This document shows, one piece after another, positions 3,808-47,798 of a DNA stretch of 51,263 nt. Position 1 is the first letter of the stretch, and each line of letters starts with the position of its first letter. The position numbers and the translations under genes were made by a program. Source of the DNA: a bacterium HR35. GTDB taxonomy: Bacteria > Patescibacteriota > Minisyncoccia > UBA6257 > HR35. Location of the stretch: assembly GCA_002898235.1 (NCBI GenBank), contig BEIL01000002.1, forward strand, positions 1-51,263, given 5' to 3'. The notes beneath the pieces were generated by a model. The model searched no databases. It was not told where the DNA came from and worked only from the letters and a program-made list of their open reading frames with translations.

Positions 3808-5016
3808 ATGAAAGGTTTTCTTTATCTTCCACTTTTGTTTTTAGCTTTTATTATTGATGTGATTGAAATAATTTTAAGCTTAGCCGATTCAACAGTTATT
3901 CTCATTGTCTTACACATTCTTCAAATTTTACTTGATCTTTTATTTAATCTTTTATTTTTGGTAATTTTTTTACCTTCAATTTTTGAAGCTCTTAGAGAAA
4001 AAAGAGCAAAAACTGTTTTAATTAGAAGAATTGTTGCTTTTCTTACAGAAGCTATTGGTGAATCAATTCCTGTTTTAGATTTCCTACCTATTAGATCTCT
4101 AACTATTTTTTTTATGTGGCTTGATGAATCAGGAATAATTGAAAAAATCCAAAAAAAGATAAGCGAGACAATTTCTAAAGCTTCTCAACTTCCGGTCATT
4201 GGTACCTTGGTTAAAAAATATTCAGAAGTTTTAGAACAACCATTAGTTAAAGAAGTTTTACCAAGAGTTGTTTCCAATAAAGCTATTGAAACTTTATCTC
4301 CGATTTCTTCTCTTCCTCAAACACCCCAGGTTATTCAACCTAAAAAAATAGAGACTTCTCCAAAAACTCCTTATCTTAAATCCGCTAAATTATCTACTCG
4401 AGGAACTGTTTTTGTTTTCCTCTTTTTCTTTTCTCTTTTTTCCTTTTCTTCAATTTCTTTAGCTCAAACAAAAGAGGTTTATTTCTTTACTAAAAAAACC
4501 AAAGACGGAATTATTGTCTCAAGTATTTTTGTTAATCCAAAAACTAAAACCATTTACGAACCGCCTCCAGTTTCTAAATTTGATTGGAAAATTCCTTTTT
4601 CTCAAGATTTTTCAATTACTTCTTATAAAAGTTTTTTAAAAGTTGATCCTGACCCTAAATTTAAAAGAGAATCAGCTAAAATTAAACTTTTTGTTTCCGG
4701 CATAAGTTTTAAAGATAAAAAATTTTATGAAGGCGAGGTTTTTCTTCCCTCTCCTGATATTTCAATTATTAAAATTAAAAACTCCTATTTTGAACTGCCA
4801 TTTTTAGGAAAAATCGAAGGTAATGAAATTCTTAGTTATAAAACTTGGAATTTTACTTCTGACAATTTAACTAATGTTTGGAAGTTAAATGATATTTTCC
4901 TTAGTAATCAAAGGCAACTAAATATTAATTTAATTTCCCCTGGCCTGCTTTCTTTAGAAGTAGTTAATTTAAACAATCGTAACGAAAAAGTGATAAAATT
5001 TCTTTTAGTTAAATAA
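3808..5016 (+). CDS. Membrane protein with an internal signal-peptide-like segment
   Basis: A 402-residue protein without a recognised family. The N-terminal ~65 residues are strongly hydrophobic (two probable membrane helices), followed by a charged region and a Pro-rich linker to about residue 185. A second hydrophobic stretch near residues 196-220 is preceded by Lys/Arg and ends in SLAQ, just like a cleavable signal peptide. The last ~180 residues are strand-rich and would be extracellular. It therefore reads as a membrane part joined to an exported beta-rich part. It sits between VirB4 and the VirB2-like fusion with one-base spacings, so it probably belongs to the same machine, perhaps in a VirB6/VirB8-like place (inference). 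Confidence 0.7.
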   Translation: MKGFLYLPLLFLAFIIDVIEIILSLADSTVILIVLHILQILLDLLFNLLFLVIFLPSIFEALREKRAKTVLIRRIVAFLTEAIGESIPVLDFLPIRSLTIFFMWLDESGIIEKIQKKISETISKASQLPVIGTLVKKYSEVLEQPLVKEVLPRVVSNKAIETLSPISSLPQTPQVIQPKKIETSPKTPYLKSAKLSTRGTVFVFLFFFSLFSFSSISLAQTKEVYFFTKKTKDGIIVSSIFVNPKTKTIYEPPPVSKFDWKIPFSQDFSITSYKSFLKVDPDPKFKRESAKIKLFVSGISFKDKKFYEGEVFLPSPDISIIKIKNSYFELPFLGKIEGNEILSYKTWNFTSDNLTNVWKLNDIFLSNQRQLNINLISPGLLSLEVVNLNNRNEKVIKFLLVK

Positions 5017-5323
5017 AATGCCCAACATTCAATCAATTTTAAGTTGTTATGACCTTCAGAGTTGTTTTCAGGCTGTTTATAATTTAGGTTTAGTTTTGCT
5101 TTTTGTTTTAGCTTTTTTGAATATGGTTTATGGAGCTGTACTTTATCTTTTTTCAGCTGCAAGTATTTTTAGTAAAGAGGAAGGAAAAAATAGGATTATT
5201 AACTCTATTGGAGCAATTGCTATAACCTTAATCTTGCCTCAAATTTTAAATATTATTAATCCTGGTATTTTTCAAGTTAAGCTTTGGATTCCAACTATTC
5301 AAGAAGCTAAAAGTCCGGTTTTT
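5010..5323 (+). repeat. 314-bp near-identical inverted duplicate, copy A
   Basis: Bases 5010-5323 match the reverse complement of 47382-47695 with a single difference (C at 5233 against T in the other sense strand), a silent change in an Ile codon. The match includes eight bases before the ATG (TAAATAAA), which here contain the stop codon of the upstream gene, and stops abruptly after codon 102. It encodes the whole VirB2-like two-helix module. Confidence 0.97.
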
Positions 5324-5869
5324 AAGACAGAAGCTCTTTGGGGAGAAGCTGAAATTGTAAATCAAGTAAATAGCGTTATTCCTACCCAAGCTTATTATTG
5401 GCTTGATCCAAATAAAGCTGGGAAATTAGCTGATTATACTTGTTTTAGTAACGCAATTTATGTAGATAAAAACGATTCTCTATTTGGAAGCTCGACGTCT
5501 TATAATGGTATCCCTGTTTCTTCCTTGGTTAATAAACAATTGGTTGAGTGTGTAACTCCAAAATATTCTAACTTTAGGATAACTCAAGGTTATAATCCTG
5601 GTTCTTTTGATAAATCTCATCAATTAGGCTATGGAATTGATATTATTCCTAATGATGGAAATTATCAAGCTTTAACAAATGCCTTAGTTAATTGCGGTTT
5701 TTCTGTTTTAAACGAAAGCGAAAGAGTAATTGAATGTTATGGCGAAGGAAGTACTAGGCTAGTTAAACCTTGTCCTTCTGAATGTAGAAGCAGCTATCTT
5801 AAACCTGGTTGTGTTTGTGCTTATACCGGACCTCATCTTCATGCTGCTTTAATGGTCAGAGAAAAATAA
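5018..5869 (+). CDS. VirB2/TrbC-like two-helix domain fused to an M15/M23-like metallopeptidase domain
   Basis: A 283-residue protein. Residues 1-102 contain two hydrophobic helices (about 21-48 and 60-82) separated by a short basic loop, the layout of VirB2/TrbC pilins, though without an obvious cleavable leader. The C-terminal part is Cys-rich. It carries SHQLGYGID near residues 200-208, which fits the HxxGxAxD zinc motif of LAS/M15 peptidases, and TGPHLHA near 270-276, which resembles the HxH end motif of M23/LAS enzymes. A cell-wall peptidase is therefore likely; M15 versus M23 cannot be settled by eye. The first 306 bases are almost identical to the start of the gene at 46707-47687. It begins one base after the upstream stop, so it is an operon member. 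Confidence 0.75.
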   Translation: MPNIQSILSCYDLQSCFQAVYNLGLVLLFVLAFLNMVYGAVLYLFSAASIFSKEEGKNRIINSIGAIAITLILPQILNIINPGIFQVKLWIPTIQEAKSPVFKTEALWGEAEIVNQVNSVIPTQAYYWLDPNKAGKLADYTCFSNAIYVDKNDSLFGSSTSYNGIPVSSLVNKQLVECVTPKYSNFRITQGYNPGSFDKSHQLGYGIDIIPNDGNYQALTNALVNCGFSVLNESERVIECYGEGSTRLVKPCPSECRSSYLKPGCVCAYTGPHLHAALMVREK

Positions 5870-5885
5870 TAGCAAAATAAGAAAA

Positions 5886-7040
5886 ATGAGAAAACAAATA
5901 ATTTTTTTAGTAGGTTTAGGAGTAATAGTCATTATTTTAGTTGTTTCAATAGTAGGCTATTTTGCTACTCGACCTAAAACTCAGCCAACAAAACCCCAAG
6001 TAGTTGAAGTTTTAGAAGAGAAACCATCTCCACCAGCAGCAATAGAAGAAAAAAAAATAACTTTACCCGGACTTCAAATTACTACTTCAGAAAGTACGAC
6101 CTCAGAAAACATTGAGGAAATACCAACAACTACTTTAGGACAATTAACCAAGCCCCTTTTTGAAAAGGAGTATATTTTTGCTGGTTTAATCTATCCTTAT
6201 GTTTATCTTTATGATCCTGGAGAGGGTATTTTGAAATATATCAATTTAGATGACAAAACTTATAAAGAGCTTTATCGAAGTTTTTCTCTTTATTACCCTT
6301 TGGTTTCGCCTACAAGAAAAAGAATTGTTTTTCAAGAAAACAATGTTTGGAAGGTTTTAGATTTGTCACTTGACGAAACTAAAACGCTTAATTATCAACT
6401 TTCTGATTTTGCCTGGAAAAATGACGAACTTTATTATTTTGCTTTTGATGAAAATCGCGGCGGTGGGGTATATAAATTTTCTGACTTTAATAAAGAACCA
6501 ATACTTTTAAGCAAATTAAATTTACCTGAAGCCAAGATGGAGATTTTTGGTGATTCTCTTTTAGTTTGGGCCTCTCCTCTTATTTCTTATAATTCACCAA
6601 TATTTCTTCTAGACTTAAAAAGGCCGGCAGCTTTTAAACTAATTTTTGAAGAAAAGACTTATCCTTCGCTTTTAGCTAATAGTAGTGGTGAGTATCTTTT
6701 TTTAAGCTCAGTTGAAAATGGTTTGTGGGTTTCTAAAATTTATAATCGAAGCTTTAAGGTAATTAAAGAATTTAATTGGGGAAGCTTAAAGGAAAAGTGT
6801 ACTTTTCAAAAAGTTTTGGTATGTGGAGTACCAATCAATCAAGAAACAGATTTAATTTCTTGGTATCATTTAAATAAAAGCTTTAATGATAAGATAATTA
6901 TTTTTGACCCAGTTAAAAAAGAAGAAAAAGAAATAATTTTAGATAAAAATTATGATGTTTTATATCCTCAATTAACACCTTTAGGAGTTATTTTCTTAAA
7001 TCGAAACGATTCAAAACTTTATTTAGTTACCTTAGAATAA
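5886..7040 (+). CDS. Membrane-anchored beta-propeller-like surface protein
   Basis: A 384-residue protein. A short basic start leads into one hydrophobic helix (about residues 5-27) that acts as an uncleaved anchor. A Pro/Thr/Ser/Glu-rich stalk follows to about residue 95, then a strand-rich region with recurring patterns such as YPYVYLYDPGEG, SFSLYYPLVSPTRKRIVFQ and DFAWKNDELYYFAF. These resemble blades of a WD40/TolB-like beta-propeller. The protein would face outward, held by the stalk. It is the last + strand gene of the operon (16 bases after the peptidase fusion) and converges on yidC. The exact function is unknown. Confidence 0.7.
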   Translation: MRKQIIFLVGLGVIVIILVVSIVGYFATRPKTQPTKPQVVEVLEEKPSPPAAIEEKKITLPGLQITTSESTTSENIEEIPTTTLGQLTKPLFEKEYIFAGLIYPYVYLYDPGEGILKYINLDDKTYKELYRSFSLYYPLVSPTRKRIVFQENNVWKVLDLSLDETKTLNYQLSDFAWKNDELYYFAFDENRGGGVYKFSDFNKEPILLSKLNLPEAKMEIFGDSLLVWASPLISYNSPIFLLDLKRPAAFKLIFEEKTYPSLLANSSGEYLFLSSVENGLWVSKIYNRSFKVIKEFNWGSLKEKCTFQKVLVCGVPINQETDLISWYHLNKSFNDKIIIFDPVKKEEKEIILDKNYDVLYPQLTPLGVIFLNRNDSKLYLVTLE

Positions 7041-7041
7041 T

Positions 7042-7665
7042 TTATTTTTCTAAAGAAATTGGTTTAAGTTTTTCTTCATAAAAAAGAAAAAGTTTTTTCT
7101 CAATTATTAACAAAATAAGGTTCGTTAGCCAATAGATTGAAAAAATAGCCGGGAAATTAATTATTACTAAAGCAATTAAACCAATCAACAAAAATTGGTT
7201 TTTCAAATCTTCTTTATTAAAGAGATAGACGCTTAAGAATTGAAAAAAGATAGTTAGTCCGATTAAAATGGGATTTTTAGAGGCTAAGTTAATCACCCCC
7301 AAAAACATTAAATTTTTATTTTCTGCCAAAATTTTCTTTAAAAGAAAAAAAATGGCAATTAAAAGAGGAAATGGTAAAAACTGAAAAACGATAGAAAGAA
7401 AAGGGTTAAATTTTTCTTCTTGATAAATTTTATTAATTTCTTCTAATTGTTTTAAGGGATCATTTTTATGTTTTTCCATAAGATTTTTTATTTTTGGTCT
7501 AATCTTTTTTAGTTTTATTTCTTCTTTAAAAACTAAATAACTTAAGGGCAAAATCGAAAGCCTAAAAAGAAAAGTAAATAAAATCAAAGCTAAGCCATAA
7601 TCATTAGTTAGAGAGTATAAAAATTTATAAAAACCTAAAAAGTTTTCTGTTAAAAAATTAATCAT
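7042..7665 (-). CDS. yidC: Membrane protein insertase YidC/Oxa1
   Basis: A 207-residue polytopic protein of the YidC/Oxa1/Alb3 family, which inserts proteins into the cytoplasmic membrane with or without SecYEG. The sequence shows the family core: a first helix after YGLALILFTFLFRL with the conserved Arg inside the membrane segment, then a cytoplasmic coiled hairpin rich in Lys/Glu (about residues 48-85). Further hydrophobic helices follow, including one ending SIYWLTNLILL. It lacks the large periplasmic domain of Gram-negative YidC, like short Gram-positive and CPR versions. It overlaps rnpA by 8 bases in the standard rpmH-rnpA-yidC order. Confidence 0.93.
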   Translation of the reverse strand: MINFLTENFLGFYKFLYSLTNDYGLALILFTFLFRLSILPLSYLVFKEEIKLKKIRPKIKNLMEKHKNDPLKQLEEINKIYQEEKFNPFLSIVFQFLPFPLLIAIFFLLKKILAENKNLMFLGVINLASKNPILIGLTIFFQFLSVYLFNKEDLKNQFLLIGLIALVIINFPAIFSIYWLTNLILLIIEKKLFLFYEEKLKPISLEK

Positions 7666-7999
7666 TTATTTTTTGTAAGAGTTTTAATAATTCTTGTTCT
7701 AATTCTTTAATTTTTTTTTCGACCAATTCCCTCTTAATTAATAAAATGACGAAATCATACTTTTTTTCCACTAATTTTCCCCAATTTTTTCTAATTATTT
7801 CGTAAATTTTTCTTTTAAGTTTATTTCTAATCACCGCCTTCTTGAAAATCTTTATTTCTGGTTTTACTGAAAACCTCGGATAAGATAAATTATTTGGCCT
7901 ATAAAAAATAAGAAAATTTTCCGATTTTAAGCTCTTTCTTTTCTCAATAAAAAAATTTTTCAAATCATCGCCTTTTAATCTAAAAATCTTTTTTAACAT
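7658..7999 (-). CDS. rnpA: Ribonuclease P protein component
   Basis: A 113-residue basic protein. It contains the RnpA signature region KKAVIRNKLKRKIYEIIR near residues 53-70, matching the RNR motif that binds RNase P RNA, preceded by the RFSVKPEIK strand. It combines with the RNA encoded at 19956-20302 to trim tRNA 5' ends. It lies 6 bases after rpmH and overlaps yidC, so the three are one transcript, the arrangement found next to dnaA in most bacteria. Confidence 0.93.
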   Translation of the reverse strand: MLKKIFRLKGDDLKNFFIEKRKSLKSENFLIFYRPNNLSYPRFSVKPEIKIFKKAVIRNKLKRKIYEIIRKNWGKLVEKKYDFVILLIKRELVEKKIKELEQELLKLLQKIND

Positions 8000-8005
8000 T
8001 AAATC

Positions 8006-8119
8006 TTAAGCTAATCTTTTTCTTCCTTTTCTTCTTCGTCTTTGAAGAATCTTTCTTCCAGCTTTAGTCCTCTTTCTAACTAAAAATCCTGATGTTCTTT
8101 TCTTTTTTCTCTTGGTCAT
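8006..8119 (-). CDS. rpmH: Ribosomal protein bL34 (short N-terminus)
   Basis: A 37-residue, Lys/Arg-rich protein of the large ribosomal subunit. The core TSGFLVRKRTKAGRKILQRR followed by RRKGRKRLA matches bL34 well. The usual start of the family (MKRTYQPS) is missing and replaced by MTKRKKKR, so the protein is several residues shorter than the typical 44-46. It starts 50 bases from the divergent dnaA and heads the rpmH-rnpA-yidC transcript. Confidence 0.93.
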   Translation of the reverse strand: MTKRKKKRTSGFLVRKRTKAGRKILQRRRRKGRKRLA

Positions 8120-8128
8120 TTTTGTCTC

Positions 8129-8158
8129 TTGAAGTCAATCTCTAGTTTATATTATAAT
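8129..8158 (+). promoter_or_regulatory. Predicted sigma-70-type promoter of dnaA
   Basis: A TTGAAG at 8129-8134 and a perfect TATAAT at 8153-8158 with an 18-base spacer lie 11 bases upstream of the dnaA ATG, which implies a very short leader. The -10 lies in a near-palindrome (TATTATAATA), so it could also serve as the -10 of the divergent rpmH transcript, although I see no good -35 for that direction. Confidence 0.6.
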
Positions 8159-8169
8159 ACATCTTAAAA

Positions 8170-9537
8170 ATGACACCTAGCACTTTTGAAAATCTTTGGC
8201 AAGAAGTTTTATCTGAGATTAAAAATAAATTAGGAGAAAAAACTTTTAACATTTGGTTTAACGAATTTTCACCTAAAACTTTTATCCATAATTCTTTAAA
8301 AATAGAAGTTCCAAGTAAATTCGTTAAAGATTGGATTGAAAAAAATTATTTTCAAACAATCTGCCAAATAATAAAAAGCAAATTTCCTGAGGTAAAAGCC
8401 GTTGAAATTATTGTTAATTCAGAAAAAACAACAATTATTAGACAAAAATCTACGGTCTTTAAAAGGCTTCAAAGTTTGGCTTTAAAAACTAGCAAAGGGA
8501 TTTTTGATATTAATCCCCAAACTAATTTAAATCCTCGTTATCGGTTTGATAATTTTGTTGTTGGCAAAACTAATGAGTTAGCTTTTACTGCTTGTCAAGC
8601 GGTAGTTAAAAATTTAGGAAGTCTTCATAATCCCCTTTTTATTTATGGACCAGTAGGAGTTGGTAAAACTCATCTTCTTCAAGCAACTGGAAATGAAATT
8701 TGTAAAATTTATAAAAATTTAAAAGTTAAATACATTACTACCGAAGATTTTACCAATCAATTTATAAACTCAATTAAAAATCAGAGCGTTGAAGAGTTTC
8801 GTTTCCGTTTTCGCGATGTTGATGTTTTAATTTTAGATGATGTTCATTTTCTTTCAGGTAAAATTAGCACTCAAGAAGAGTTATTTCATACTTTTAACTT
8901 CCTTTATAATCTTTCTAAACAAATAATTTTTTCCTCTGATAGACCGCCGGCTTTAATTCCTGATATTGAAGAAAGACTAAGATCACGATTTGAAGGCGGT
9001 TTAATTGTTGATATTAATCCTCCTGATTTTGAAACTCGAGTAGCTATTTTAAAAATGAAAGCTCAAGAAAAAGGCTTAGAATTGGAAAATGAAATTTTAG
9101 AGTATATTGCTGAAAAATTCACTAATAATATTCGTGAATTAGAGGGTGTTCTTTCTTCAATTTATTTTGAAAGCCAATTAAATAAAAAAATTACTTTAGA
9201 AATTGTTAAAGAAATTATAAAAAGATTTTCTAAAGAAGTTTATCGTAAGTTTACTCCTCGAAAAATAATTAAAACTATTGTGAATCATTATGAGTTAAAA
9301 GAGGAGGAGGTTTTATTAAAAAAAATTAGGAATAAAAATTTAGTTCAAATAAGACAAATCTTGATTTACCTTTTAAGAGAATACGCCCAACTTTCTTATA
9401 CTTCAATCGCCGAACTTCTTAAAAAAGACCATACAACTATTATTTATTCTTATGAAAAAGTTGTGGAAAAGTTGAAAACTGATGAAGCTTTAAAACAAGA
9501 AATTGAAATTTTAAAATCAAAATTAAACGAGGTTTAA
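8170..9537 (+). CDS. dnaA: Chromosomal replication initiator DnaA
   Basis: A 455-residue initiator that binds DnaA boxes and opens the origin in its ATP form. Domain I is residues ~1-85 (WQEVLSEIKNKLGEKTFNIW). The AAA+ domain begins at NPRYRFDNFVVGKTNELA, with Walker A GPVGVGKTH at ~160-168 and Walker B LILDDVHFL at ~218-226. Sensor I and arginine-finger segments follow (ERLRSRFEGGL). The C-terminal DNA-binding helix-turn-helix ends with KKDHTTIIYSYEKV, matching the family signature DHTTV. The length is normal. It lies upstream of dnaN and divergent from rpmH, as at many bacterial origins. Confidence 0.97.
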   Translation: MTPSTFENLWQEVLSEIKNKLGEKTFNIWFNEFSPKTFIHNSLKIEVPSKFVKDWIEKNYFQTICQIIKSKFPEVKAVEIIVNSEKTTIIRQKSTVFKRLQSLALKTSKGIFDINPQTNLNPRYRFDNFVVGKTNELAFTACQAVVKNLGSLHNPLFIYGPVGVGKTHLLQATGNEICKIYKNLKVKYITTEDFTNQFINSIKNQSVEEFRFRFRDVDVLILDDVHFLSGKISTQEELFHTFNFLYNLSKQIIFSSDRPPALIPDIEERLRSRFEGGLIVDINPPDFETRVAILKMKAQEKGLELENEILEYIAEKFTNNIRELEGVLSSIYFESQLNKKITLEIVKEIIKRFSKEVYRKFTPRKIIKTIVNHYELKEEEVLLKKIRNKNLVQIRQILIYLLREYAQLSYTSIAELLKKDHTTIIYSYEKVVEKLKTDEALKQEIEILKSKLNEV

Positions 9538-39994: not shown

Positions 39995-40046
39995 AAGAAA
40001 GATATGATTAATGTTGAGACAATAGTTAAGGGTTGATCAAAGAAAA
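39995..40046 (+). other. 5' strand of the 23S processing stem
   Basis: Bases 39995-40046 are complementary to 43785-43836 along about 50 pairs, with two single-base bulges. This encloses 23S in a long duplex of the type cut by RNase III during maturation. Confidence 0.9.
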
Positions 40047-42105
40047 GGTTACGGGCTAAGGGTGGATGCCTTGGGAGGAGGTGGCGATGAAGGACGCGGC
40101 TAGGCTGCGAAAAGCCTGGGGGAGGCGCCTAGCAGCCGTTGATCCCAGGATTTCCGAATGGGGTAACCTGTCCTAACGATAAGTTAGGACATCCAGAGGG
40201 ATTAGCTCCTCTGGAGGCGGACCCGGGGAAGTGAAACATCTCAGTACCCGGAGGAAAAGATACCAATTCGGTATTCCCTGAGTAGCGGCGAGCGAAAAGG
40301 GAAAAGCCCAAACGCGAGCTCCATAAGGAGCAAGCGGGTTAAAGGGCCAAAGCGTTCTCTTTAAAAAAGTTTTTGATCCTGGTGCATGGGATCAAACTTT
40401 TTTAAAGAGAGGTAGGGTTACAAAAGAAATCGTTAGCCGAAAGCGCTGGAAAGCGCTGCCAAAGAGGGTGAAAGCCCCGTAGGCAAAAACGATTTCTCCC
40501 TACTGCTTTGGTTCCTGAGTACCCCGAGGAATGATAACCTTGGGGGAAATTGCCGGAACCAACCGGTAAGGCTAAATACACCTCCTCACCGATAGTGCAC
40601 CTAGTACCGCGAGGGAAAGGTGAAAAGCAGGCCGGAAGGCCGGTGAAATAGAACCTGAAACCCTTAGCCTACAAAGAGCACAAGCCCGTAAGGGTGAGTG
40701 CGTGCCTATTGAAGAATGAGCCGGCGAGTTTGGGATGCTCGCTTGGTTAAGGCCAGTCAAGGCCGAAGCCAAAGGGAAACCGATTTGGTCTGAAAAGGGC
40801 CAAATTAAGTGGGCATCCCAAGACCCGAAGCCAGACGATCTACCCGTGGCCAGGGTGAACTTCACCGAAAGGTGGGGGGAGGCCCGAACCCGTGGGTTTC
40901 GCAAAACCTTGGGATGAGCTGCGGGTAGGAGTGAAAAGCTTATCGCGTCTGGGAATAGCTGGTTCTCCCCGAAATAGCTTTAGGGCTAGCGGACGTTAAT
41001 AGCCTCTTGGAGGTAGAGCACTAATAAGTTGGTAAAGGGCGAAAGCCCAGCCAACTTATTAAACTCCGAATTCCAAGAGGTGTTCCGTCTAGTCAGCCCA
41101 TGGGGGATAAGCTCCATGGACAAGAGGGGAACAACCCAGATTCCCAGCTAAGGCCCCAAAATCCCAGCTAAGTAGGAAAGGTAGTATCTCTCCTATGACA
41201 ACTAGGAGGTTGGCTTAGAAGCAGCCATCCTTTAAAGAGTGCGTAACAGCTCACTAGTCGAGGAGAGATGCACCGAAACATTTACGGGTTTAAGCTGGGT
41301 GCCGAAGCTGGAATCTAGGAAGCTTTTTGCTTCCTAGAGGTAGGGGAGCATTCCATTCGCGTTGAAGGTCCATCCGCGAGGAGGACTGGAGCGAATGGAA
41401 GAGAGAATGCCGGCATGAGTAACCGCAAATCGCCTGAGATGGGCGATCGCCGTAAGGGCAAGGTTTCCTTGGCAATGGAAATCAGCCAAGGGTTAGGCGG
41501 GACCTAAGGTAAACCCGAAAGGGGTAGTCGATGGATAGCCGGTTAATATTCCGGCCCCACTCTTTGATTCCGATGGGGTGACGAGGGATATAAGGAGAGG
41601 AGAGGTAATGGTTACTCTTCTTCCTTAAACTAGAGGGCGAGGTAGAGCAAATCTCTACCTCTAGGGTCAAGAGCCCAGCCCTCGATTAAGGAAGGAAGTC
41701 TTCTTTTAGAAGACAACCTCTCCGAAGAGCCCTCCAAGAAAAGCCTCTAAGGATAAATCAAAGAGTGCCCGTACCGGAAAACCGACACAGGTGCCCGAGG
41801 CGAGTAGCCTAAGGCGAACGGGTGATCCCTCCTCAAGGAACTCGGCAAAAAAGCGGGCGTAACTTCGGGAGAAGCCCTCCCTGTAGTATGCCAAAAGCAT
41901 ACTCCAGGGCGCAGCGAACGTCTCCCTGGCGACTGTTTACCAAAAACACAGCTCCCTGCTTAACTGGTAACAGGAAGTATAGGGGGTGACGCCTGACCGA
42001 TGCCGGAAGGTTAAAGCATCAGGGTAGTTACTGAAGTAGCTTAGCTATTTCAGTAACTGCTCATGGTGCTAAGCCCCGGTCAATGTCGGCCCTAACCCTG
42101 AGGGT

Positions 42106-42836
42106 TGATCCAAAGCGGATTGGGCCCTCATAAAATCCAGCTATATGCTGGGACACCTCGATAGTCGGTCATTACCGAGTTTTAACTTGCTAAGCCAAAA
42201 GTCCCAAGATGGGCTAGCTTAGCGAGAAGGTGAAAAAATGATACGTAGAGGCAACCAGCAGGAAAGGCTTTCTACTAGAGATAGGCTTGGGTATTTTTTA
42301 GCAGGCTTTGTTGAAGGAGAAGGAAGTTTCACGGTTCAAGTAAGGTTTCATCCTGGAACCAAATTTGGTATAGCAATTGATCCTGAGTTTTACTTATACC
42401 AACACCAGAAAAGAAAAAAAATTTTAGAACTTGCTCAAGAATTCTTTCAAACAGGTAAAATATGGAAAAAACCTGGAACAGAAAATGTGCTGGTTTATGG
42501 TATAAAATCAAGAAGAAGTATAATCGAAAAAGTTGTGCCTTTTGTTGAAAAATATTTGCTACCTTATACTTCAAGAAAAGAGCAAATAGAATTTTTTTTA
42601 AATGTTTTGAAAATGCTTGAAGAAAAAAAGCATCATACAAAAGAAGGAATTTTGGAAATTGTTGATTATCTCTATTCTACAGAAAGAAAATTTAAAATAC
42701 CCAAGTCTACACTAGTAGAAAGAATCCTCAGAGGCCATACGCTGGACAGGTCATAAAGGAAAATATAGGGAACTAAGATTGTCCTTTATGGCCTGAAGAT
42801 ATGGTCCAGCCCCTATGGTGACATAGGGATAAGCTG
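42106..42836 (+). mobile_element. Group I intron in 23S rRNA (E. coli position ~1923)
   Basis: The 5' exon ends GAGGGU (42100-42105), which pairs with the guide GCCCUC (42124-42129) with the obligatory U-G at the splice site. The core has P2 CCAGC/GCUGG (42137, 42147), P7 CUGGAC (42742-42747) with GUCCAG (42804-42809) in the conserved GAAGAUAUGGUCC segment, P8 CAUAAAGGA/UCCUUUAUG (42752, 42782) and P9 CCCUAUG/CAUAGGG (42811, 42822). The terminal G is 42836. Splicing rejoins helix 69 as six perfect pairs (GGCCCU with AGGGU|C). The size is 731 bases including the endonuclease gene. The site matches that of the Chlamydomonas I-CeuI intron. Confidence 0.88.
42238..42756 (+). CDS. LAGLIDADG homing endonuclease (single-motif) encoded in the intron
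   Basis: A 172-residue protein with one LAGLIDADG-type helix, GYFLAGFVEGEGSF near residues 18-31. It should therefore act as a homodimer, like I-CreI and I-CeuI. Strand/helix segments (FTVQVRFHPG, YLYQHQKRKKILELAQEFF, SIIEKVVPFVEKYLL) fit the fold. It would cut intronless 23S genes at the insertion site and spread the intron. A good ribosome-binding site (GAGAAGGTG) precedes the ATG, unlike most genes here. Its 3' end runs into the P7 and P8 5' strands of the intron, so the coding sequence and ribozyme share bases. The frame is intact. Confidence 0.93.
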   Translation: MIRRGNQQERLSTRDRLGYFLAGFVEGEGSFTVQVRFHPGTKFGIAIDPEFYLYQHQKRKKILELAQEFFQTGKIWKKPGTENVLVYGIKSRRSIIEKVVPFVEKYLLPYTSRKEQIEFFLNVLKMLEEKKHHTKEGILEIVDYLYSTERKFKIPKSTLVERILRGHTLDRS

Positions 42837-43329
42837 CCGAAGGTAGCGCAATTCCTTTCCGGGTAAGTTCCGGAGCGCATGAAAGGCGTAACGACTGGGG
42901 AACTGTCTCGAGGAGGGGCCCGGTGAAAATGCAATCCCCGTGAAGATGCGGGGTGCGGGCAACGGGACGGAAAGACCCCGGGAGCTTTACTGGGCTCACT
43001 CATTGGTTTTGGTTAGATGATGCATAGTGTAGCGGGGAGGCTATGAAGCTCTGCTTTCGGGCAGAGTGGAGCCGTCAATGGAACACCCGCCTTCATCTAG
43101 CTGAAACCTAACCCATTTAGCTAAAATGGGAACAGTGAGTGGGGGCCAGTTTCACTGGGGCGGTGGCCTCCTAAAAAGTAACGGAGGCGTCCAAAGGTCG
43201 GCTTGTCCTGGATGGAAACCAGGATGAAAGTGTAAAGGCAAAAGCCGGCCTGACTGCAAGGCTGACAAGCCGAGCAGAGGCGAAAGCCGGGCTTAGTGAC
43301 CCGACGGCCCTTTTTGGAAAGGCCGGAGA

Positions 43330-43364
<35 letters not shown>

Positions 43365-43481
43365 GTGTGGCCCGAGAGTCCACATCGACGGCCACGCTCG
43401 GCACCTCGATGTCGGCTCACCCTAGCGCGGGGCTGAAGAAGGTCCCAAGCGTCGGGCTGTTCGCCCGTTAAAAGGGTACGT

Positions 43482-43516
<35 letters not shown>

Positions 43517-43784
43517 CATATCTGTTGCCCGCGTTTGGAAGCCTGAGGGGAGCTGGTCCTAGTACGAGAGGACCGGACTGGGGCAGCCTCTGGTGTACCA
43601 GTTGTTCCTCCAGGAGCATCGCTGGGTAGCTATGCTGCCACGGGATAAGCGCTGAAAGCATCTAAGCGCGAAACCCACCCCAAGATTAGGCTTCCTTTAT
43701 TAGCCCCCAGGAAGATCACCTGGTTGATAGGCCCCTACTGGAAGCTCGGCAACGGGTTGAGGTTAGGGGTACTAATGGGCAAAA

Positions 43785-43836
43785 TTTTCTTTGATCAACC
43801 CTTAACTTATTGTCTCAACATTAATCATTCTTTCTT
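43785..43836 (+). other. 3' strand of the 23S processing stem
   Basis: Partner of 39995-40046. It includes the 23S 3' terminal helix and extends to within about ten bases of 5S, so cleavage here would separate 23S from 5S. Confidence 0.9.
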
Positions 43837-46706: not shown

Positions 46707-47687
46707 TTAAAGCTTACCGCAGTTTACTTTCCAAACATAAGGATTTCCTGGCGAAGAATATTGATTAATTGCTTGAAGAACAGAAAAAGGAATGCTCACA
46801 TAATTTCCATTAGCAGGATCTTTAAGATAAATACAATCTTGATAGATTTGATTACTTCCACCTCGTTGAGGAATAGAACACTGATTTAAGTATCCGACAG
46901 CTAAAAGATAATGACCAGCAGGATAGGTATTATCTCTAATATTGATAATAAATTTTTCTCCAGTTTTGATTCCGTTTAAAAAATCATCCCAAGAAGAAAT
47001 TCTGTCAGCTTTAGTATCAATAAAAGCTTTATTAGTTCCTCGATACCCGCCCAATCCTTGACTTACAGCTTCATTAGCTGTTTTTACAATATAATTTTTA
47101 ATTTCTGTTTTTTCTTCTTGACTAATTCCATCGTTGCAGAAATTAGAGCAATTAGCTTTTAACATAGCTAAGGAAACAATTCCGCAACCAGATGGCCCAA
47201 TATATCCATCACCATACCGAATATTAGCATAATCAGGATCGGTTTGTTTAACTAAAGGCACTCCATAATAGCAATCATAGCTAGAAACTTGATTTCTTCC
47301 AACGCCTGGCGGAGACAGATAATTTACATAACCCGGAGGAGAAGAAACGGTTCGATAACCCATTAAACCACCAAAAGTTTCAAAAACCGGACTTTTAGCT
47401 TCTTGAATAGTTGGAATCCAAAGCTTAACTTGAAAAATACCAGGATTAATAATATTTAAAATTTGAGGCAAAATTAAGGTTATAGCAATTGCTCCAATAG
47501 AGTTAATAATCCTATTTTTTCCTTCCTCTTTACTAAAAATACTTGCAGCTGAAAAAAGATAAAGTACAGCTCCATAAACCATATTCAAAAAAGCTAAAAC
47601 AAAAAGCAAAACTAAACCTAAATTATAAACAGCCTGAAAACAACTCTGAAGGTCATAACAACTTAAAATTGATTGAATGTTGGGCAT
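46707..47687 (-). CDS. VirB2-like two-helix domain fused to a C39/papain-like cysteine peptidase domain
   Basis: A 326-residue protein. Residues 1-102 are identical at protein level to the N-terminus of the gene at 5018, with two hydrophobic helices. The rest is unrelated to that gene. It has IGPSGCGIVSLAML near residues 160-173 (nucleophile Cys), AGHYLLAVGYL near 255-265 (His) and LKDPANGNYVSIPF near 288-301 (Asp/Asn), the catalytic order of C39-type and related papain-like peptidases. Several extra Cys could form disulphides outside the cell. A peptidase, amidase or toxin role on cell-wall or protein targets is inferred. It stands alone between rplL and tRNA-Arg(TCG), away from the secretion operon. 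The start is fixed by the duplicated ATG. Confidence 0.77.
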   Translation of the reverse strand: MPNIQSILSCYDLQSCFQAVYNLGLVLLFVLAFLNMVYGAVLYLFSAASIFSKEEGKNRIINSIGAIAITLILPQILNIINPGIFQVKLWIPTIQEAKSPVFETFGGLMGYRTVSSPPGYVNYLSPPGVGRNQVSSYDCYYGVPLVKQTDPDYANIRYGDGYIGPSGCGIVSLAMLKANCSNFCNDGISQEEKTEIKNYIVKTANEAVSQGLGGYRGTNKAFIDTKADRISSWDDFLNGIKTGEKFIINIRDNTYPAGHYLLAVGYLNQCSIPQRGGSNQIYQDCIYLKDPANGNYVSIPFSVLQAINQYSSPGNPYVWKVNCGKL

Positions 47688-47695
47688 TTTATTTA
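47382..47695 (-). repeat. 314-bp near-identical inverted duplicate, copy B
   Basis: The reverse complement of 5010-5323 with one difference (47472). The match starts eight bases before the ATG and ends after codon 102, exactly where the two encoded proteins diverge. It lies ~30 bases from tRNA-Arg(TCG). Confidence 0.97.
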
Positions 47696-47725: not shown

Positions 47726-47798
47726 GCCCCTGTAGCTCAACTGGAAGAGCGCGTGGCTTCGGACCACGAGGTTGGGGGTTCGAGTCCCTCCAGGGGCA
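47726..47798 (+). tRNA. tRNA-Arg (anticodon TCG)
   Basis: A 73-base cloverleaf. The acceptor GCCCCTG pairs with CAGGGGC, with discriminator A at 47798. The anticodon stem CGTGG/CCACG encloses CTTCGGA with TCG at 34-36. The T-arm is GGGGG-TTCGAGT-CCCTC, with one weak closing pair. CCA is not encoded. Confidence 0.94.

Follow-up and report, generated by a model that had tools for sequence, protein, structure and literature searches.

The window, by which we mean the whole analysed stretch of 51,263 nucleotides, carries two genes in which one and the same module of a T4SS pilin family is fused to two different predicted peptidases, and throughout the GTDB family to which the window's genome belongs the module bears enzyme tails that vary between species and loci. 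The fusions, their synteny with virB4 and the variety of their tails are established by comparison of genome sequences. With a probability of roughly 0.55 we read these proteins as tethered wall enzymes of the Patescibacteria T4SS, with interchangeable heads and a VirB1-like role; that the module docks at the T4SS, that the tails are active enzymes and that they act like VirB1 is what we infer. What the T4SS does in Saccharibacteria is described as completely unknown in PMC11665869; fusions of pilin and enzyme next to virB4 suggest a direct and testable role, namely that of tethered wall enzymes. Moreover, an anchor that evolves in concert while its enzyme heads are exchanged is a clear example from nature of proteins being shuffled as modules in genomes of very small size.

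The shared module and its two enzyme tails

The fusion gene at locus A (5018–5869, forward strand) encodes the T4SS-pilin-like module in codons 1–102 followed by an M15-like metallopeptidase tail, and the fusion gene at locus B (46707–47687, reverse strand) encodes the same module followed by a C39/papain-like tail. The shared block starts at 5010, 8 bp 5' of the ATG at 5018, and reaches to codon 102, where the identity ends. Its two copies, at 5010–5323 on the forward strand and, inverted relative to the first and 42 kb away, at 47382–47695 on the reverse strand, agree upon realignment in 313 of 314 bases, the lone mismatch being a synonymous ATC/ATT difference in codon 72; beyond the block the tails do not align. 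The initial annotation had described both the near-identity, including the upstream bases, and the unrelated remainders correctly. The window contains no other repeat of at least 60 bp, and the 596 kb genome contains only these two module copies. A 42-kb inversion between the copies was rejected as sole cause, since both flanks of locus B stay in place while its tail differs.

In profile searches the module belongs to the two-helix T4SS_pilin family (PF18895, VirB2-like), with matches at E<=0.05 in 42 of 45 relatives and a best value of 2e-14. The window copy searched alone reaches E=0.052 and falls under the cut-off, which we count against the tethered-enzyme reading; the earlier label VirB2-like is true of the family. 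A conjugal pilin-like family of NCBIfam additionally matches the module weakly in two relatives, G001 and G012. The module consists of two hydrophobic helices, placed at residues 13–45 and 53–80 by a low-confidence model, with a basic loop between them, and its two N-terminal cysteines are kept in the closer relatives. The basic loop together with the conserved cysteines suggests that both module ends, and hence the enzyme tail, face outward. The structure models of the fusions are of low confidence, which likewise counts against the tethered-enzyme reading.

The locus A tail (5324–5869, forward strand) has no Pfam match when searched by itself, and Foldseek with the M15-tail model gave no usable match. 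A profile of the tail hits Hedgehog, a protein of the M15 fold, with E=1.7e-5, and the tail keeps the metal ligands and catalytic Glu H201, D208, E233 and H273-L-H275 (full-protein numbering). From the initial designation M15/M23-like, M15 can therefore be retained, while M23 was dropped in favour of the M15/Hedgehog-like profile. The locus B tail (46707–47381, reverse strand), annotated as a C39/papain-like cysteine peptidase with visible catalytic motifs, keeps this identity: it matches Pfam C39_2 with E=2.5e-4, slightly under the Pfam cut-off (the copy in G012 lies above it), its profile matches the PCAT C39 domain with E=0.001, and the Cys-His-Asp triad C168, H259 and D290 (full-protein numbering) is invariant across three relatives. 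In the window's family the C39-like domain is confined to fusions with the module; the M15-like domain, too, is carried by the module in nearly all cases, the exception being one weak match in G014. In the window's own genome a lysozyme-type tail gave no match in a query search performed without positive control. The assignment of the tails as wall-cleaving is derived from sequence motifs and profiles.

The virB4 neighbourhood and possible roles of the fusions

At locus A, where the genes given with coordinates lie on the forward strand, a 221-aa gene is followed by a PrgI-like (VirB3-type) T4SS gene (803–1375), identified by a weak profile match (E=0.012) and syntenic orthologues, a 209-aa gene without Pfam match that is conserved in the T4SS cluster (1381–2010), the gene of the only VirB4-like ATPase found in the genome (2007–3806), a 402-aa gene (3808–5016), the fusion, a 384-aa gene directly 3' of it (5886–7040), a yidC-like gene, a 113-aa gene and dnaA. 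The fusion at 5018 is the second gene past virB4, and a module gene lies two or three genes after virB4 in all 13 of the virB4 loci examined in the window's GTDB family, which bears out the initial placement beside a VirB4 machine. The genes at 3808–5016 and 5886–7040 are conserved in the family, fast-evolving and without significant Pfam match; they flank the fusion family-wide and may be unrecognised T4SS parts. The yidC-like gene and dnaA adjoin the cluster at 7042–9537, and an origin-proximal T4SS placement of this kind is reported for some Patescibacteria in PMC12102498.

We propose that residues 1–102 fold into a helical hairpin of the VirB2 kind, whose charged loop lies inside and whose two ends point outward, and which would dock at, or polymerise with, the VirB4/PrgI machine and thereby hold a wall-cutting enzyme outside the membrane. 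The tethered enzyme could then open the peptidoglycan at the site where it is traversed by the channel or pilus of the T4SS, one polypeptide doing the job of VirB1-type enzymes elsewhere, and each genome would keep a small set of wall enzymes on the same anchor. The bacterium probably makes its own cell wall, as three penicillin-binding proteins are encoded in the window's own genome; an SLT-family enzyme was not found there.

The main rival explanation, which we regard as possible but somewhat unlikely, is a host-directed display, in which the fusions would form part of a VirB2-type pilus or lie exposed at the surface, their tails would act against the wall or the proteins of a host or rival, and tail exchange would track host wall chemistry. 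Most CPR bacteria live as episymbionts, and in one of them epibiotic growth requires T4SS genes (PMC12102498, PMC11665869); furthermore, the tail repertoire varies between close relatives, and the papain-like model of the C39 tail, although of low confidence, is similar both to papain-like contact-dependent toxins and to PCAT peptidases. However, an immunity-like gene was not recognised next to the fusions, the genome has penicillin-binding proteins of its own, and the tail classes are those used on the producer's wall in T4SS assembly. The tail types fit the VirB1 class at least as well as delivery into a host or rival.

The surroundings of the other loci bear on a further reading, i.e., that the enzymes serve general wall maintenance in growth or division, unrelated to the T4SS, and that the module is merely a convenient membrane anchor. 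Locus B, downstream of 23S and 5S rRNA, comprises a Trp/Tyr-type tRNA synthetase gene, L10, L12, the fusion, tRNA-Arg, and FemAB-family, DegT-family and Mur-ligase genes, the names L10 and L12 resting on the size and placement of the genes and on the L10 leader, not on a Pfam scan. At locus C, which is found in other genera, the module copy follows a RecO gene and a class II tRNA synthetase gene. The module copies of loci B and C are not next to T4SS genes, which counts against tethering to the T4SS, and the position of two of the three loci among such housekeeping genes (L10/L12, FemX, Mur ligase; RecO, tRNA synthetase) favours wall maintenance. Nevertheless, we judge it quite unlikely, given the virB4-linked copy in every family locus seen and the membership of the module in a T4SS pilin family, which makes it no arbitrary transmembrane segment.

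Exchange of tails and concerted evolution of the module

Loci A, B and C were compared by synteny across the window's GTDB family, with the window's genome designated G000. At least seven tail types were identified: M15-like, VanY, C39-like, CHAP, lysozyme/SLT, L,D-transpeptidase and 3D. At locus A the tail is M15 in G000 and G008, L,D-transpeptidase in G002, CHAP in G003 and 3D in G005, G006, G007 and G011, the 3D label of G007 and G011 being given by similarity (a weak Pfam match with E=0.059 in G007, and 39% identity to G011). In G001 the locus A tail is a lysozyme as judged by the downstream 384-aa gene; its join to virB4 is uncertain, because an overlap of exactly 127 bp links its contig ends to other contigs, which we read as assembler k-mer junctions. 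The G001 junctions of M15 tail with L12 and of lysozyme tail with the 384-aa gene bypass the repeat and are hence safe. At locus B the tail is C39 in G000 and in contig L084, M15 in G001 and lysozyme in G003 and G008. Locus C bears M15 in G007 and G011, CHAP in G013, C39 in G012, and L,D-transpeptidase plus VanY in G005, where synteny rests on the upstream tRNA synthetase gene. Several tail types are thus shared between loci, and a given locus can bear different tails in different species, which upholds the initial view of a constant pilin-like module with exchangeable enzyme tails; the relatives do not carry a single tail type. Together these syntenic comparisons demonstrate that tails have been exchanged between loci.

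The C39 tail of G000 is 53% identical to that of G001 and 39% to that of L084, in contrast to the module and most shared flanking genes, which are closer to, or as close to, L084. A tRNA-Arg(TCG) gene (47726–47798, forward strand) lies upstream of the locus B fusion, and in G001 a segment of FemX 3' end and tRNA-Arg(TCG) has a second copy after the C39 tail (L064:5-77, L065:7296-7368); this arrangement suggests that a unit of tRNA, module and tail was duplicated or inserted there via module homology. The locus A copy of G013 (L077:8423-8848) is a short module gene of 141 aa with no recognisable enzyme tail and possibly reflects tail loss.

While the tails differ, the module copies within a genome can be nearly identical in DNA: 99.7% in G000, 99–100% in G001, 98.8% in G007 (on one contig) and 98.3% in G011. 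Identity is lower in G013 (92.9%), G012 (80%), G005 (77% and 72%) and G008 (73%); homogenisation is therefore not universal, and the copies at 72–80% in G005, G008 and G012 count against the tethered-enzyme reading. In module trees the copies cluster by genome, and the overall number of changes is the lowest that can occur, a value reached in 0 of 200 shuffles; only the G013 copies do not form a clade; the tested groupings by tail type or locus were rejected (AU p 3e-4 to 7e-59). At sites encoding the same residue, codons agree in 95–99% within G000, G001, G007 and G011, compared with 55–77% between genomes. The plain VirB2 pilins of the window's genome are 21–37% identical to each other, and class-level pilin arrays show mostly 28–57% identity, with one pair at 70%, so that homogenisation is specific to certain fusions. 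The plain short VirB2-like pilins (118–220 aa) form an array in the window's own genome (L095, C3:14000-28000; positions 5645-7957) between rpoB and a gyrase A-type gene. Protein-level selection alone was rejected as cause of the identity, as synonymous codons are identical too and adjacent plain pilins diverge.

The initial annotation had proposed a very recent swap or ongoing gene conversion. Same-tail fusions are common to several species while their modules group by genome, which speaks for a recurrent within-genome process and not for one recent swap. The tree and codon comparisons demonstrate that the module copies undergo concerted evolution. We propose that recombination between module copies (gene conversion, accompanied by crossover or the insertion of cassettes) maintains the similarity of the anchors within a genome while the tails move between loci. 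With identical modules, all enzymes would continue to fit one common dock, and the stretch of identity delimits what is apparently conserved in common. A single recent domain swap or an assembly chimera in the window genome alone, for which the repeat exceeding short-read k-mer length and the 127-bp contig ends of G001 could speak, is highly improbable and was rejected, since the pattern recurs in independent assemblies (G001, G003, G007 on a single contig, G011, G013, G019, G054 and G197), tail-downstream junctions outside the repeat differ between species, and same-tail-type fusions are found across species.

Distribution beyond the family and related systems

With the module profile, matches were obtained in all 113 genomes of the class and in 56 of the 59 phylum genomes, both as short pilins and as long fused forms. 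Wall-enzyme Pfam domains are present in only a few of the 55 long members fetched, mostly from the class, so that the association with wall enzymes is most pronounced in the window's own family; most long class members have a tail without wall-enzyme match, a further point against the tethered-enzyme reading, and when tails were surveyed across the class by regex, few could be typed with confidence. Outside the family, module copies within a genome are 96% identical over 272 bp in G054 and 99.6% over 545 bp in G019, and in G197, from another class of the same phylum, 99.8% over 500 bp, followed by SLT plus GDSL-type versus SLT plus amidase tails. That much of the CPR phylum uses combinatorial, recombination-maintained enzymes, tethered to pilus or channel on a homogenised T4SS pilin module, for breaching the host envelope in episymbiosis seems unlikely to us. 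Viral carriage was considered and rejected, as a search of viral contigs with the chosen patterns revealed no relative.

The R64 PilV shufflon joins a constant N-terminal pilin part to alternative C-termini. The fusions resemble it in this architecture, whereas here every tail is part of a complete gene with its own module at its own locus. No recombinase-driven cluster of invertible segments was seen in the window; shufflon-type phase variation was rejected, as each of the two genes is complete and has a module of its own, and the window has no large repeat pair apart from the module. Polymorphic toxin systems also combine a conserved N-terminal part with swapped C-terminal enzymes. The fusions share this organisation, but their tails in the family are mostly wall enzymes, and neither immunity genes nor orphan tail modules were recognised.

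In monoderm bacteria, VirB1 proteins are membrane-anchored wall enzymes (PMC12857230). The fusions are similar in their wall-cleaving domains to these hydrolases, e.g., PrgK of pCF10, TraG of pIP501 and Orf14 of Tn916, which are membrane-anchored, carry extracellular SLT, CHAP or related domains and serve the T4SS (PMC12857230). Unlike in these proteins, the anchor here is a pilin-family hairpin, there is usually one enzyme type per gene, and several interchangeable genes per genome use a homogenised anchor. PMC12102498 reports VirB1 homologues of Patescibacteria as mostly unlinked to virB4, and describes PF18895 pilins near virB4, in several copies per genome and in arrays of <=54% identity. 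For Ca. S. epibionticum, a Saccharibacterium that is in culture and has been studied genetically, the same paper reports that a peptidase and a lysozyme encoded 3' of virB4 are essential. The module agrees with these pilins in its two-helix family, virB4 proximity and multiple copies; it differs from them, considered as small, arrayed proteins of <=54% identity, in bearing enzyme tails and in the 99.7% DNA identity of the window copies. Pilin-enzyme fusions are not mentioned in the excerpts of PMC12102498, and no description of them was found in the main texts of the open-access papers searched.

Two further observations concern the assemblies and the rRNA locus. Contig L084 (JAUQQL010000027.1), titled Thermodesulfobacteriota, belongs to a close CPR relative of the window genome, which indicates a binning error. 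The 23S rRNA match at 40039–43794 extends over 3756 bp compared with 2925 in the model and probably holds an insertion or intron.
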